NCBI GenBank assembly: GCA_900696455.1
Contig: CAADGB010000518.1
Span: forward strand, 1-37,876
Length of the DNA: 37,876 bases
Source of the DNA: an uncultured delta proteobacterium
GTDB lineage: Bacteria > Myxococcota_A > Polyangia > Haliangiales > Haliangiaceae
Direction of reading: 5' to 3'
Shown here: positions 2,358-26,992 of the stretch, piece after piece
Layout: each line of letters opens with the position of its first letter
Numbering within the stretch: position 1 is the first letter of the stretch
Translations under genes and position numbers: made by a program
Notes under the pieces: generated by a model
Told to the model about the DNA's origin: nothing
Database searches by the model: none
The model's input: the letters and a program-made list of their open reading frames with translations, nothing else

Positions 2358-5159
2358 TCACCAGGGCGTCGAGCCGGCGTCGACTCGCCACAGCTCGCCG
2401 CGCAGCCCGTTCTCGACGATCACGACGTGGCCCTGGGACGTGATCGCGGCCTCGACCGACGTGCCGTCGGGGGCGACGTGGAGCTGCTCGGCGCGGCCGG
2501 CGGCGAGCGCCACCCGCCACACCGCCTCGCCGCGCAGGCCGGTGCGGTAGACGCCCCAGTCGCCGTCGGGCGACAGCGCCACGTCCTGCACCTCGGCGAG
2601 GCCTTCGGGCAGCACCGCCGTCAGCTCGGCGCCGGTCGCCGGATCCCACCACGACAGCGCGCCGCCCGCGGCCTGGAGCAGCACGCGGCCGCCGCCGCGG
2701 TCGACCGCGAGCGCGCGCCGCCCGCGGCGCACCGGCGTCGGATCCTCGCCGGGGCGGACGCGGTACACCGCCGGCGTGCCGTCGACGCGGGTGAACACCA
2801 CGGTGCCGTCGTCGAGGAAGAGCGGCCGGTCGTCGCCGGGGTGGCGCGTGAGCGGCTCGGGGCGGGCGTCGGCGGTCAGCGCCAGGCGGACCAGGCCGGG
2901 CGCGCTGCCCTGGCGGACGTAGGCCACGGCGTCGCCGGCGCGCGCGAAGGCGGGGCGGGCCAGGAGGTCACCGCCGTGCGCGGTGGGCAGCACGCGGGTC
3001 GCGCCGTCGGGCTCGCGCACGACCAGCTCGCGGCCGTCGTGCACCCACACCAGGCGGCCGCCGGCGCCGGTGGCGGGGCCGGCGACGGGGCCGGCGCCCT
3101 CGACCAGCGTGCGCGGCGGCGACGCGCCGTGATCGCGCAGCACGCCCCGGCGCGCGCAGTCCGAGTACACCAGCACGCCGCCGGCGGGCGCCACCGCCAC
3201 GCCGCCGGGGGCGCGCACGTCACGCACCATGTCCCACGCGTCGCGGGCGTCGGCGGTCGGCGCGAGCGCGCGGATGCCGGTCGGGGCCGGGTAGTACACC
3301 CAGCCGCGGGTGCCGAAGTCGGCGCGCCCGATGGGCCCGACGGGGCCGGCGCAGCGCAGGGCGCGGGCGCGGACGTCGACCAGGCACAGCTCGTCGGCGC
3401 CGCCGCCCGCCGGGTGGGTGACCAGCGCCAGCCAGCGGCCGTCGCGCGACGCCACCATCGAGCGCAGGCCGCGGCCACCGAGCGACACCAGCTCCTGCTT
3501 GACGCCGCCGCGCTCGTGGCGCACCGACGACGAGCCCTCGCTCACGTAGGCGAGCGCGCCGCCGAGGGCGGCGACGCCGTCGAGCTCGCCGCGGACCACC
3601 GGCTCGGGGCGAACGTCGCCGAGCGCGCCGCGACCGGCGGCCAGGGCGTAGGCGCCGCTGCGCGGCGGGTCGTCGAGGTCGGTCACCAGGTACAGCACCT
3701 GATCGCCGCCGCGTCCGGGGACCGGACGCCACGCCCAGGCCCCGTCGTCGGTGAGCGGGCGGGTCTCCTGGCGCTCGAGCGCGAGGGCGTGGAGGTCGAT
3801 GCGGCCGTCGCGGGTGAGGTCGAAGACCACGGTGTCATCGTCGATGAAGGTCGGGTTGGCGGCGCAGCCGCCGAGCTCGGTGACGCGGATCGGCGCCGCC
3901 GAGATGGCGATCGCGGCGTCGAGGGCGTCGGCCGGACCGGCGTCGGGCGTGACCTCCGCCACCCGGCCGGCGTCGACCGGCGCGGTCGCCGGCGGGGCGC
4001 CGCGGAGCTGGAGCACGACCCAGGCGCCGCCGGCGACCGCGGTGATGCCGCCCAGCGCCGCCACGGTGCGCAGCCGACGCCGCCCGGCGGTGTCGGCGTG
4101 GGCGAGCGCGGCCACGAACGCCGTCACCGACGGCGTGCGCCGGTCGCGGTCGGCGCGCAGCGCGTGCTCGATGACGGCGTCGAGCTCGCTGCTCAGGCTC
4201 GGCACCAGCTCGCGTGCCCGCGGGTAGCGCTCGGTGGCGACCTCGTCGCGGACGTCGGCCCAGGTCTTGCCGCGGTAGGGGCGGGCCGCGGTCAGGAGCT
4301 CGTAGAGCACGACGCCGAGCGAGAACACGTCGGCGCGGGCGTCGGCCTCGGCGCCGTCCATGAGCTCGAGCGCCGAGTAGCCGGGGGTGCCCATGGCGGC
4401 GCCGGCGACGGTGAGATCGGCGTCGGCCGACGGCCCGCGGTCGAACGACGCCATCGTCGGGCCGGTGGCATCGATCACGCGGGCCGGGTCGGCCGCGCCG
4501 GGCGCCGGCATCGACGGCGGGCGGCCGGCAGCCGGGGCCGCGCCGGCGCCGCCGAGGCCGGGGCGGGTGACGGCGTCGGCCGGGGCCGGGCCGTGGACGA
4601 CGTCGCCGCCGTTCCTCGGCGCCACCACCGCGTCGCCGGAGGCGGCGAGCCGGGCCGCGGCGCCGGCCTCGCCGTCGCGCCGCATGCGCTTGGACAGGCC
4701 GAAGTCGAGCACCTTGACGTGTCCGTCGGGCGTCACCATCAGGTTCGAGCACTTGATGTCGCGGTGGACGAAGCCGGCCTTGTGCGCGAACTCGAGCGCG
4801 GCGGCCACCGGCCGCACCAGGCGCAGGGCCTCGGCCAGCGGCAGGGCGCCGCGGCGGGCGAGGACCTGGCTGAAGGTGTCGCCCTCGACGTACTCCATCA
4901 CCAGGAAGATGCCGCCGTCGTGCTCGTCGACCTGGTGGACGGTGACGATGCTGGGGTGGACCAGCGCGCTGGCGGCGCGGGCCTCGCGCAGCATGCGGGC
5001 GCGGGCCTCCTCGTTCTTCTCGACCGCGCGCGGCAGCACCTTGATCGCGACCGGCCGCTCCAGCTTCTCGTCGAAGGCGCGGAAGACCTCGCCCATGCCG
5101 CCGGCGCCGAGCCGCGTCTCGATCCGGTAGTGGCCGATCCGCTGGCCCGGCTCGATCAC
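2358..5159 (-). CDS. Membrane Ser/Thr protein kinase with extracytoplasmic beta-propeller
   Basis: A 933-residue receptor-like kinase from the PknB-type families common in myxobacteria. The kinase domain (about 8-355) has the Gly loop LGAGGMGEVF (17-26), Lys40 in VAIKVL, catalytic HRDIKCSNL (132-140) and DFG (152-154). One membrane helix (about 365-385) is followed by a Thr/Asp-rich linker and a large domain of repeated beta-strand blades (WLALVTHP, VAYVRQGS, LSPDGDWGVY), a TolB/WD40-like propeller expected outside the cytoplasm. A roughly 100-residue Ala/Pro/Gly-rich insertion separates DFG from GYSALELMDG (the APE region), which is unusual. I chose GTG at 5159, with AGGA upstream; earlier in-frame codons run into the preceding gene. 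It lies 29 bases after the WYL gene and is probably co-transcribed with it. Ligand and substrates are unknown. Confidence 0.9.
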   Translation of the reverse strand: MIEPGQRIGHYRIETRLGAGGMGEVFRAFDEKLERPVAIKVLPRAVEKNEEARARMLREARAASALVHPSIVTVHQVDEHDGGIFLVMEYVEGDTFSQVLARRGALPLAEALRLVRPVAAALEFAHKAGFVHRDIKCSNLMVTPDGHVKVLDFGLSKRMRRDGEAGAAARLAASGDAVVAPRNGGDVVHGPAPADAVTRPGLGGAGAAPAAGRPPSMPAPGAADPARVIDATGPTMASFDRGPSADADLTVAGAAMGTPGYSALELMDGAEADARADVFSLGVVLYELLTAARPYRGKTWADVRDEVATERYPRARELVPSLSSELDAVIEHALRADRDRRTPSVTAFVAALAHADTAGRRRLRTVAALGGITAVAGGAWVVLQLRGAPPATAPVDAGRVAEVTPDAGPADALDAAIAISAAPIRVTELGGCAANPTFIDDDTVVFDLTRDGRIDLHALALERQETRPLTDDGAWAWRPVPGRGGDQVLYLVTDLDDPPRSGAYALAAGRGALGDVRPEPVVRGELDGVAALGGALAYVSEGSSSVRHERGGVKQELVSLGGRGLRSMVASRDGRWLALVTHPAGGGADELCLVDVRARALRCAGPVGPIGRADFGTRGWVYYPAPTGIRALAPTADARDAWDMVRDVRAPGGVAVAPAGGVLVYSDCARRGVLRDHGASPPRTLVEGAGPVAGPATGAGGRLVWVHDGRELVVREPDGATRVLPTAHGGDLLARPAFARAGDAVAYVRQGSAPGLVRLALTADARPEPLTRHPGDDRPLFLDDGTVVFTRVDGTPAVYRVRPGEDPTPVRRGRRALAVDRGGGRVLLQAAGGALSWWDPATGAELTAVLPEGLAEVQDVALSPDGDWGVYRTGLRGEAVWRVALAAGRAEQLHVAPDGTSVEAAITSQGHVVIVENGLRGELWRVDAGSTPW

Positions 5160-5188
5160 GATCGCACGTCCTGGGAGCCGATCATGGG

Positions 5189-6159
5189 TCAGCCGAGGGC
5201 GGCGCGGACGCGGGCGAGGCGCTCGCGCATGGCGGTCCGCGCGTCCTCGGGGCCGACGATCCAGGCGTGGCGGCCGAAGCCGAGCACCCAGCCGGTGACC
5301 CACTCGAAGCCTTCACAGTCGATGAGGATCTCGGCGCCGCCGTCGTCGAGCACCTCGACCTCCCCTACCGGCCAGGTGGCGCCGACCCGGGTGACGGCCA
5401 GCGGATCGAGGTGGACGCGCACGGTGACGGCGTCGGCCGACGGTACGTACAGGCGCTCGCGGCGGTAGGCCTCGAGGTCGAAGCCGGCGGGCGGGCTGAA
5501 GCGCTCGCTGGTCTCGGCCAGGGCGGCGATGCGATCGATGCGGAAGGTGCGGACGTCGCCGCGGCTGTGGCAGTGGCCGACCATGTACCACTCGCCGGCG
5601 TGGTGGACGATGCCATAGGGGTCGACCTGGCGCTTCTGCGCGGCGTGGCGCGAGGCGCTGACGTAGTCGATCTCGACGGTGGCGTGGCGGCGGGCGGCGG
5701 TGACCAGGCGGCGGAGGTGGCCGCTGACGACGGTGTCGGGCTCGGCGACCACGGTGCCGGTGGCCAGGGTCTCGGCCTCGCGGGCGTCGCGGCCGAGCGC
5801 GCCCAGGAGCTTCTTCTCGGCCGCCGCCATCGAGGTGTCGAACGGCACGACGCCGCGCTGGCGCAGGGCGCGGATGCCGAGCAGGAGCGAGCAGCCCTCG
5901 GCCGGGGTCAGGCGCAGCGGCCGGGTCAGGCGGTGGGGCAGATCGACGAAGACCCGGCCATCCTCGACCGAGACCAGCAGGTACTCGCCGGGATCGCCGT
6001 CGGGCGGGCCGACCTGGGTGAGCAGGTCGAGCTCGGCCACCATCTCGTCGCGATCGACGCCGAGCCGCCGCGCCAGCTCCTCGACCGGCACGCCATCGGG
6101 GTGCTTGGCCACGTACGGCACCACGAACAGCAGCCGGCGTAGCTTCTGGCCGATGTCCC

Positions 6160-23656: not shown

Positions 23657-24829
23657 CTACGTCGTCGCCGGCTTCTTCTTCTTGCCGGGGAGGATGTTCA
23701 GGAGCTTGCAGATGATGCCGAGCATGATCTCGTCGGCGCCGCCGCCGATGGACATGAGGCGGGTGTCGCGGAACGCGCGGGAGGCCGGGTTGTCCCACAT
23801 GAAGCCCATGCCGCCCCAGTACTGGAGGCAACCGTCGGCGACCTCGCGGACGAGGCGGCCGGCCTTGAGCTTGGCCATGGACGCCAGCATCGTGACGTCG
23901 CGACCGCCGACGTACTCCTCGACCGCGCGGTAGACCAGCGAGCGCAGCAGCTCGACCTCGGTCTTGAGCTCGGCCATCCGGAAGTGGATGACCTGGTTGT
24001 CGATCAGCGGCTGGCCGAAGGTGTGGCGCTCGCGGCAGTAGGCGATCGTGGCGTCGATCAGGCGCTCCATGCCGCGCAGCGAGCTGGCGGCGCCGAACAG
24101 GCGCTCCTCCTGGAACTGCACCATCTGCATCATGAAGCCCATGCCCTCGGCGCCGATGCGGTGGCGCTGCGGCACCCGCACGTCCTCGAAGTAGAGCGGC
24201 ACGGTGTCGCTGGCGCGCATGCCGAGCTTGTCGAGCTTGGCGCCGACCGTGACGCCCTTGGTCCGGGTCGGCACGACGATGAGCGACTTGTTCATGTGGG
24301 GCGCGCCCTCGCCGGTGTTGGCGAGCAGGCACAGCCAGTCGGCCTGCGCCCCGTTGGTGATCCACATCTTGCTGCCGTTGATGACGTAGTCGTCGCCGTC
24401 CTTGCGGGCGTGGGTCTTGAGCGCGGCGACGTCGGAGCCGCCGCCGACCTCGCTGACCGCGATCGCCGTCACCATCTCGCCGGCGATGGCCGGGACCAGG
24501 AACTCGCGGCGCAGCTCGTCGCTGCCCCAGCGCGCCAGGGCCGGCGTCGCCATGTCGGTCTGCACGCCCAGCGCCATCGGCACCGAGCCGCTGGCGCAGG
24601 TGCCGAGCTCCTCGGTGCACACCATCGAGTACGAGTAGTCGAGGCCGAGGCCGCCGAAGGCCTCGGGCTTGCTGACGCCGAGCAGGCCGAGCTTGCCGGC
24701 CTTGGCGAACACCTCGTGGGCGGGGAAGGCGCCGGCCTTCTCCCACTCGTCGACGTGGGGGTTGATCTCCTTGTCGACGAAGTCGCGGACGGTCTTGCGG
24801 AGCTGGTGGTGCTCTTCGGTGAAGCGCAT
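23657..24829 (-). CDS. Acyl-CoA dehydrogenase
   Basis: A 390-residue flavoenzyme of the acyl-CoA dehydrogenase family, forming the alpha,beta double bond of an acyl-CoA and passing electrons to ETF. The N-terminal helical domain begins FTEEHHQLRKTVRDFVDKEI, then comes the FAD-contacting AIAVSEVGGGSDVAALKT and YVINGSKMWITNGAQADW. The C-terminal domain has RHTFGQPLIDNQVIHFRMAE, LQYWGGMGFM and RLMSIGGGADEIMLGII. The usual C-terminal catalytic Glu (before Gly-Thr) is replaced by Gly; the base may instead be a Glu in FQEERLF, as in isovaleryl-CoA dehydrogenase. So branched or terpenoid acyl-CoA is plausible. The ATG follows GAGGGAACC; a TACGGT element (24846-24851) lies 16 bases upstream. It stands alone, with no beta-oxidation genes next to it. 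Confidence 0.93.
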   Translation of the reverse strand: MRFTEEHHQLRKTVRDFVDKEINPHVDEWEKAGAFPAHEVFAKAGKLGLLGVSKPEAFGGLGLDYSYSMVCTEELGTCASGSVPMALGVQTDMATPALARWGSDELRREFLVPAIAGEMVTAIAVSEVGGGSDVAALKTHARKDGDDYVINGSKMWITNGAQADWLCLLANTGEGAPHMNKSLIVVPTRTKGVTVGAKLDKLGMRASDTVPLYFEDVRVPQRHRIGAEGMGFMMQMVQFQEERLFGAASSLRGMERLIDATIAYCRERHTFGQPLIDNQVIHFRMAELKTEVELLRSLVYRAVEEYVGGRDVTMLASMAKLKAGRLVREVADGCLQYWGGMGFMWDNPASRAFRDTRLMSIGGGADEIMLGIICKLLNILPGKKKKPATT

Positions 24830-24896: not shown

Positions 24897-26180
<1,284 letters not shown>

Positions 26181-26185
26181 ATCGT

Positions 26186-26225
26186 CTCTCCGGAATCCGG
26201 TCGGTGGCCACCGGAATCCGGAGAG
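26186..26225. promoter_or_regulatory. 40-bp dyad overlapping the ribosome site of the FHA activator
   Basis: Two 16-bp arms (26186-26201 and 26210-26225) pair at 15 of 16 positions around an 8-base loop. Each arm contains the 11-bp palindrome CCGGA-A-TCCGG (26190-26200 and 26211-26221), with centres 21 bp apart, two helical turns. In the minus-strand RNA the 3' arm ends in GGAGAG, the likely Shine-Dalgarno sequence six bases before the GTG at 26180, so folding would hide it. Either operator DNA or an RNA switch is possible. Confidence 0.6.
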
Positions 26226-26228
26226 TCC

Positions 26229-26241
26229 TGCCAATCTGGCA
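26229..26241. promoter_or_regulatory. Second exact copy of TGCCA-ATC-TGGCA
   Basis: This is identical to 8977-8989 and lies in the 167-bp region between the divergent FHA activator and DUF882 genes, 106 bases before the ATG at 26348. It suggests a shared regulator with the PilT-like gene. Confidence 0.45.
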
Positions 26242-26347
26242 CGGCGGCGGTCTGGCCCGATGCGTCAAGCGGCTGTGATCGTTTGTGTTTCAAGGACCCT
26301 CCTGGGGGTGCTCGGTGGCACGCATGTTGATATGGTCCGGGTCAGCC

Positions 26348-26992
26348 ATGCTGTTCTCCCTCCTCCCTCTGGCGACCGTAGGCTGGCTCTCGGTCGCCCC
26401 GGCCACCGCCTCCCAGGGCACGGTCGCCGAGGTCGCCGACACCGCCGCCGCGGCCCTGGCCCAGCTCGCCGCCGACGAGGCTACCGTCCCCGTCCGCGTC
26501 TACGACGTCAACCATCGCGAGACGCGGGTGTTCCGCATCGGTCGCGACGGCAGCGTGGACGAAGCGACGCGCCAGGAGATCGATCGCATGTTCCGCTGCC
26601 GGCGCACCGACCGGCAGGCCGAGATCGATCAGGGGGCGCTCGCGATGCTGGCCGACGTCTCGGCGCGCTGGCCGGGACGGACGATCGAGCTGGTGTCGGC
26701 GTTCCGCCGCGTCGACAGCCGCACCTCGCGGCATCGCCAGGCCCGCGCCATCGACTTCCGCATCCAGGGCGTGAAGATGACGGAGGTCCGCGACTACGTC
26801 TGGGCCACCCACACCGAGCTCGGCCTGGGCTGGTACCCGAAGCAGAACTTCATCCACATGGATCACCGGCCCGGCGATCCCGACTACGCGTGGACGCAGA
26901 TCGGCGGCAAGGAGCGGCGCGGCCCGTCGTGGTCCAAGCGCGTGCGCCGCAACGAGACCCTGCGGGTGCCGGGCAGCCGCGTCGGCCTCTAG
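26348..26992 (+). CDS. Peptidase M15-like protein (DUF882/YcbK type)
   Basis: A 214-residue secreted protein. The signal peptide is residues 1-18 or so (FSLLPLATVGWLSVAPATAS). The C-terminal domain matches YcbK/DUF882, relatives of D,D-carboxypeptidases of the M15 fold: ELVSAFRR, SRHRQARAIDFRIQGV (zinc ligands His and Asp), GLGWYPKQNFIHMDHRPGD (third ligand His). Such enzymes cut or remodel peptidoglycan in the periplasm. The middle part has a linker region VRVYDVNHRETRVF. The ATG at 26348 gives a clean signal peptide; an in-frame ATG at 26324 would extend it. TATGGT (26331-26336) is a possible -10. It is divergent from the FHA activator and may share control. Confidence 0.85.
   Translation: MLFSLLPLATVGWLSVAPATASQGTVAEVADTAAAALAQLAADEATVPVRVYDVNHRETRVFRIGRDGSVDEATRQEIDRMFRCRRTDRQAEIDQGALAMLADVSARWPGRTIELVSAFRRVDSRTSRHRQARAIDFRIQGVKMTEVRDYVWATHTELGLGWYPKQNFIHMDHRPGDPDYAWTQIGGKERRGPSWSKRVRRNETLRVPGSRVGL

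Follow-up and report, generated by a model that had tools for sequence, protein, structure and literature searches.

Enhancers of sigma54-dependent promoters are palindromic sites, as a rule present in multiple copies and helically phased, that are found some 80-200 bp upstream. Combinations of a sigma54 enhancer pair with a divergent activator and its target are already known: in Desulfovibrio, many activators are transcribed divergently from the sigma54 promoter that they control and use palindromic upstream activating sites, as exemplified by DVU3142-ohc (PMC4641369). Activators in which an FHA domain accompanies the sigma54-activation domain are numerous in myxobacterial genomes, with at least 47 matches per genome to proteins of this type, and the literature searched did not yield a description of the binding site of any such activator. 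Here we analyze a stretch of 37,876 nucleotides (hereafter, the window) from an uncultured delta proteobacterium of the Haliangiaceae, which carries an imperfect dyad next to one such gene. We consider it probable, on the strength of sequence comparisons, that the dyad represents two upstream activating sites serving the divergent promoter of a peptidase gene, with the FHA activator as their presumed binder and with probable autoregulation. What is new is the sequence of the sites, their association with an activator of the FHA type, and the peptidase as a proposed target.

Two palindromes between divergent genes

The dyad is located between the activator and peptidase genes, which are transcribed divergently, in the following arrangement:

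24897-26180, minus strand: activator with FHA, sigma54-activation (AAA+, GAFTGA) and Fis-type HTH domains (Pfam FHA, Sigma54_activat and HTH_8; GAFTGA present in the translation); likely binder of the sites
26186-26225: the whole imperfect dyad, with 15/16 pairing around an 8-nt loop; its outer pairs are not conserved
26188-26202: site A, candidate enhancer/operator, CTCCGGAATCCGGTC, with core CCGGAATCCGG at 26190-26200; core kept in six congeners, with CTCCG-N5-CGGAG-type dyads in distant orthologs
26209-26223: site B, candidate enhancer/operator, CACCGGAATCCGGAG, with core CCGGAATCCGG at 26211-26221; 21 bp from site A, the spacing kept in six congeners and in genome G011
26230-26242: third small conserved palindrome, TGCCA-N3-TGGCA; 8/13 columns invariant in congeners, TGNCANNNTGGCA in 7/7
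26316-26331, plus strand, toward the peptidase gene: sigma54-type -24/-12 promoter TGGCACG-CATG-TTGAT (TGGCACGCATGTTGAT), 11/12 to TGGCACG-N4-TTGCW
26348-26992, plus strand: gene for a secreted, MepK-like M15_2/DUF882 peptidase (Pfam PF05951, E 2.2e-14); likely target

The peptidase gene product is 214 residues long and combines a signal-like N terminus with the M15_2/DUF882 domain; its match to the NCBIfam MepK model falls below the model's cut-off. The activator may start at GTG 26180 or at TTG 26171, with the ATG of its orthologs in G002, G003, G004 and G006 aligning with the latter. Sigma54 itself is encoded in the genome (RpoN; Sigma54_DBD at G000:C56, E 1.2e-63). A divergent M15 gene adjoins the activator in all orthologs found, across the genus, the family and the order, and the recognition helix of the activator is nearly invariant among these orthologs.

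In relatives without an activator beside the peptidase gene (loci L201-L211), the gene upstream of the latter resembles the beginning of an acyl-CoA dehydrogenase (MRFTEEHQ...), and a member of the same family is found in the window just beyond the activator (23657-24829, minus strand). The layout of these relatives suggests that the activator gene was inserted between the acyl-CoA dehydrogenase and peptidase genes. Several of the peptidase upstream regions in activator-less relatives contain a TGTCCG-N2-ATCCGTAC-like element.

As described in the first-pass annotation, the dyad is composed of two 16-nt arms (26186-26201 and 26210-26225) which pair at 15 of 16 positions (94% complementary) around an 8-nt loop, and the operator-like pair that it had pointed out within the arms is also present: the two copies of CCGGAATCCGG are in the same orientation and 21 bp apart, each forming a palindrome about one central base, and they are the only two matches in the window with up to one mismatch allowed. 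A dyad with 15/16 pairing and a loop of 3-12 nt occurs once in the window and once across four order-1 Markov simulations of it, so that the dyad alone is only mildly unusual in this GC-rich sequence; its significance comes from its conservation, rather than from improbability as such. The third palindrome, generalized as TGNCA-N3-TGGCA (minus strand TGCCAGATTGGCA), is found beside the dyad in all congeners, while a similar one in G011 flanks the dyads on the opposite side; it is perhaps part of the activator's own promoter. That promoter was not found, and the consensus scan yielded neither a sigma70 promoter nor a terminator. A candidate sigma54 promoter pointing toward the activator, at TGGCAGGACTCTCC, was rejected by eye, as it is missing the GC of the -12 element.

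DNA sites versus an RNA switch

Six genomes of the same genus, as well as more distant genomes, contain orthologs of the activator, and the upstream regions were aligned for seven congeneric sequences, i.e. the window and its six congeners. Each of the congeners (6/6) retains the two 11-mers at a spacing of 21 bp, with the sites conforming to CCGGAWTCCGG. Invariant columns make up 19 of the 22 site positions, as opposed to 24/122 in the remaining intergenic sequence, promoter excluded (Fisher p 2.8e-9). Even in G011, in which the activator is 66% identical and the intergenic region is hardly alignable, two such palindromes are still found 21 bp apart. The concern that the dyad might not be conserved in close relatives, raised by the first-pass annotation itself, does not hold, and its notion of an operator-like pair is strongly supported by a strictly kept CCGGAWTCCGG and a fixed 21-bp spacing in the face of a changing spacer sequence.

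The pair is also largely specific to this locus. Five congeners match the exact pair pattern; in four of them this locus is its sole genomic occurrence, and G003 has a second one. The window's own genome has three further occurrences, which belong to a different repeat class. Among 36 genomes, CTCCGRWWWYCGGAG is found in ten places, five of which correspond to the activator-peptidase intergenic region, while one of the others, in G022 C156, is located ahead of a further sigma54 promoter (11/12 match). Within each of the seven congeneric sequences the central bases of both sites are either A/A or T/T, and they switch together between the window and G002 with the spacer unchanged, a concerted change of the two copies.

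On the minus strand, GGAGAG (26191-26186) forms the end of the 3′ arm, five bases upstream of GTG 26180, and the dyad was initially read as an RNA fold hiding this ribosome site, i.e. as a translational switch for the activator. The predicted fold is indeed stable (-53.7 kcal/mol, z -4.4), and GGAG lies within the 3′ arm in the window and in four congeners. In the other two, G003 and G006, however, the spacer sequence is changed, the outer CTC...GAG pairs are lost together with the ribosome site in the stem, and an ATG follows two bases after the second palindrome; the G006 sequence does not fold into the proposed hairpin at all, and the layout differs again in distant orthologs. In an eight-sequence alignment, only one pair of the proposed stem is changed on both sides, a count reached by 497 of 500 shuffles. 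Four outer or closing pairs are broken in several sequences, and the central pair forms in 0/7 distinct rows, because both sites always carry the same central base. No Rfam match was found in the window. Neither compensated pairing nor a ribosome site that stays in the stem throughout the relatives was found, and we rejected the RNA switch, regarding it as very improbable. The comparison proposed in the first-pass annotation, of compensating changes expected for RNA with strict conservation expected for DNA, came out on the side of DNA: the 11-mers are kept, and covariation does not exceed that in shuffled alignments. What is retained is palindromic 11-mers and helical phasing, as for dimeric DNA-binding sites. 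Judging from these patterns, the dyad would work as DNA, not RNA, and the hairpin is a by-product of two similar adjacent palindromes. The same alignments bear on the suggestion that translation starts at TTG 26234, which would make the dyad coding: the frame is open up to that codon, but in G002, G003 and G006 the number of bases separating the dyad from the conserved start is changed by an amount not divisible by three, so that the dyad is out of frame there and cannot be coding. The suggestion was consequently rejected, its probability being practically negligible.

The peptidase promoter and related palindromes in the genome

The sigma54-type promoter ahead of the peptidase gene was missed in the first-pass annotation. 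In the congeners its -24 and -12 blocks are kept and the intervening N4 varies; throughout the genus the -12 element departs from TTGCW in being TTGAT, which is an unusual variant. Transcription is predicted to start at ~26341, approximately 7 nt before the peptidase ATG, so that translation would be nearly leaderless. Relative to the predicted start, the site centres fall at about -125 and -146, and the distance from the proximal site centre to the -24 element is 101-102 bp in the genus and 92 bp in G011. The window pair, two 11-bp palindromes placed 21 bp (two helical turns) apart, thus has the spacing of an enhancer and lies within the usual distance. The stretch between the dyad and the promoter also contains GATC-N8-TTG, conserved across the genus, which we considered as an IHF-like site and dismissed because it does not match the IHF consensus.

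In 13 of 13 loci with neighbouring activator and M15 genes, a sigma54 match of 9-11/12 precedes the M15 gene, and 12 of them have a CTCCG-N5-CGGAG dyad scoring 9-10/10, with 8/10 in G014. By comparison, 13 M15 homologs without an adjacent activator, from the same family of genomes, score just 6-8/10 for the dyad and, in 12 cases, 7-8/12 for sigma54, with G009 scoring 10/12. Since the dyad consensus was drawn from the activator-linked loci, the scores in those loci are partly circular, although the comparison with the activator-less ones is not.

Related palindromes are dispersed in the genome, with 31 occurrences of CCGGAATCCGG and 85 of GKCCGRRATCCGGMC versus 0 for the reversed patterns. They form clusters, each with two or three palindromes at offsets of mostly 17-23 bp, with the motif KCCG-N5-CGGM (e.g. 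loci L006, L011, L013, L020, L007, L009, L010 and L026; related loci L243-L249, L251 and L261). In all 17 clusters examined, the last palindrome is followed by a sigma54 match of 10-11/12, as compared with no more than 9 at random control positions, and the match starts 31-33 bp past the last palindrome in 10 clusters and 41-44 bp past it, one helical turn farther, in the other 7. With each of the 17 clusters placed before a sigma54-type promoter, CCG-N5-CGG palindromes in this lineage behave like enhancers of sigma54 promoters, and this supports the same reading for the window pair.

Genes directly downstream of the clusters include recA, radC, a YifB/ComM-like ATPase, REP-type tyrosine transposase-like proteins and a second FHA-sigma54 activator (L272). 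Orthologs of the cluster-linked recA in the genus, in G009 and G011 and, within the same order, in G024 likewise show a sigma54 match of 10-11 at around -42 to -57, in most cases accompanied by palindromes, and second recA copies have neither. The clusters look like a sigma54-driven recombination or competence-like regulon, which is apparently undescribed; sigma54 control of recA was not found in the literature searched. This gene set is more surprising than the window element, and as a by-product of the analysis it is to be judged separately. Three of the cluster-controlled genes (L007 1594-2532, L009 1612-2586 and L239 481-1479) encode similar proteins (PTIDHEAPVAVLRE...) with no Pfam match, which may resemble Rpn-type putative transposases; they would begin at about the predicted transcription start and may be leaderless. 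A tentative scheme, which we put forward as a possibility rather than as a likelihood, would have the FHA-type sigma54 activators of this order share a CCG-N5-CGG enhancer family, with paralogs reading the flanks: a GKCCG-N5-CGGMC branch, arranged in clusters of two or three, would serve a recombination/competence-like programme (recA, radC, comM-like and transposase-like genes, and its own FHA activator), and a CTCCG-N5-CGGAG sister branch would serve the cell-wall endopeptidase.

The abundance of dispersed copies might also mean that the dyad is just two members of a short-palindrome (REP-like) repeat family without a local role, and the counts of 31 and 85 against 0 for the reversed control would fit such a family. 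The flanks, however, differ, being GT/GG...AC/CC in the dispersed copies and CT/CA...TC/AG in the window copies; the location of the window pair is shared by every congener, and in four of the five with an exact match no second pair of this kind exists in the genome; and the dispersed family is itself found at a fixed distance from sigma54 promoters. On account of its flanks and fixed location, the window pair was not assigned to the repeat family, and conservation at one locus largely refutes the REP-like reading, leaving it only a slim chance. Somewhat better, although still unlikely, is the view that the sites are operators for another DNA-binding protein, such as a repressor of the activator gene, and that the peptidase sigma54 promoter uses other sites. 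In its favour, the sites abut the translation start of the activator, and the third palindrome is also conserved nearby without having an assigned binder. Against it, dyads of this type accompany the FHA activator gene throughout the family and the order, M15 genes that lack the activator have none upstream, and related palindromes precede sigma54 promoters throughout the genome.

Proposed function and relation to known systems

The pair of upstream activating sites is, in our reading, linked to a sigma54 activator in the adjacent gene, which has both GAFTGA and HTH_8, with the dyads absent where that gene is absent; a -24/-12 promoter is located downstream of the sites, and the host encodes sigma54. 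Most likely, the activator would bind the two palindromes as dimers through its Fis-type HTH. Its FHA domain would receive a phospho-signal leading to oligomerization, and the bound activator may then loop to sigma54-RNA polymerase at 26316-26331 and turn on the gene for the secreted M15 peptidase. The window also contains a Ser/Thr protein kinase domain protein (2361-5303, minus strand), about 20 kb from the activator gene, and this kinase is a possible source of the phospho-signal. The autoregulatory switch envisaged in the first-pass annotation stands in part: the sites adjoin the start codon of the activator, and binding there would probably regulate its expression too, which makes autoregulation plausible, but the divergent peptidase promoter is better supported as the target. 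With nameable candidate sites, promoter and target, one conserved branch of FHA activators becomes directly testable; at the same time, a tempting RNA-switch reading has been corrected, and the trail has led to a larger set of sigma54 promoters with related palindromes.

The locus resembles Shine-Dalgarno-sequestering RNA switches in the stable stem with a ribosome site in its 3′ arm, as seen in the window sequence, but differs from them in that the stem ends, the ribosome site and the pairing all vary, with conservation confined to the DNA palindromes and their phasing. With myxobacterial FHA-sigma54 activators, none of which was found to have a defined binding site in the literature searched, it shares the domain order FHA - AAA+ (sigma54 activation) - HTH_8, the genome being of the Myxococcota/Kofleriaceae-like range by its nearest hits, and a candidate site pair and target are proposed here. 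A close parallel is provided by NtrC/NifA-type systems and those of Desulfovibrio (DVU3142-ohc, PMC4641369), which likewise have an activator divergent from a -24/-12 promoter, palindromic sites ~100 bp upstream with helical-turn spacing, GAFTGA and a Fis-type HTH. Unlike in those systems, the site sequence here is CTCCG-N5-CGGAG, for which we found no description in the literature searched, the sensor is an FHA domain, the -12 element in the genus is TTGAT, and the target is a secreted M15 peptidase.
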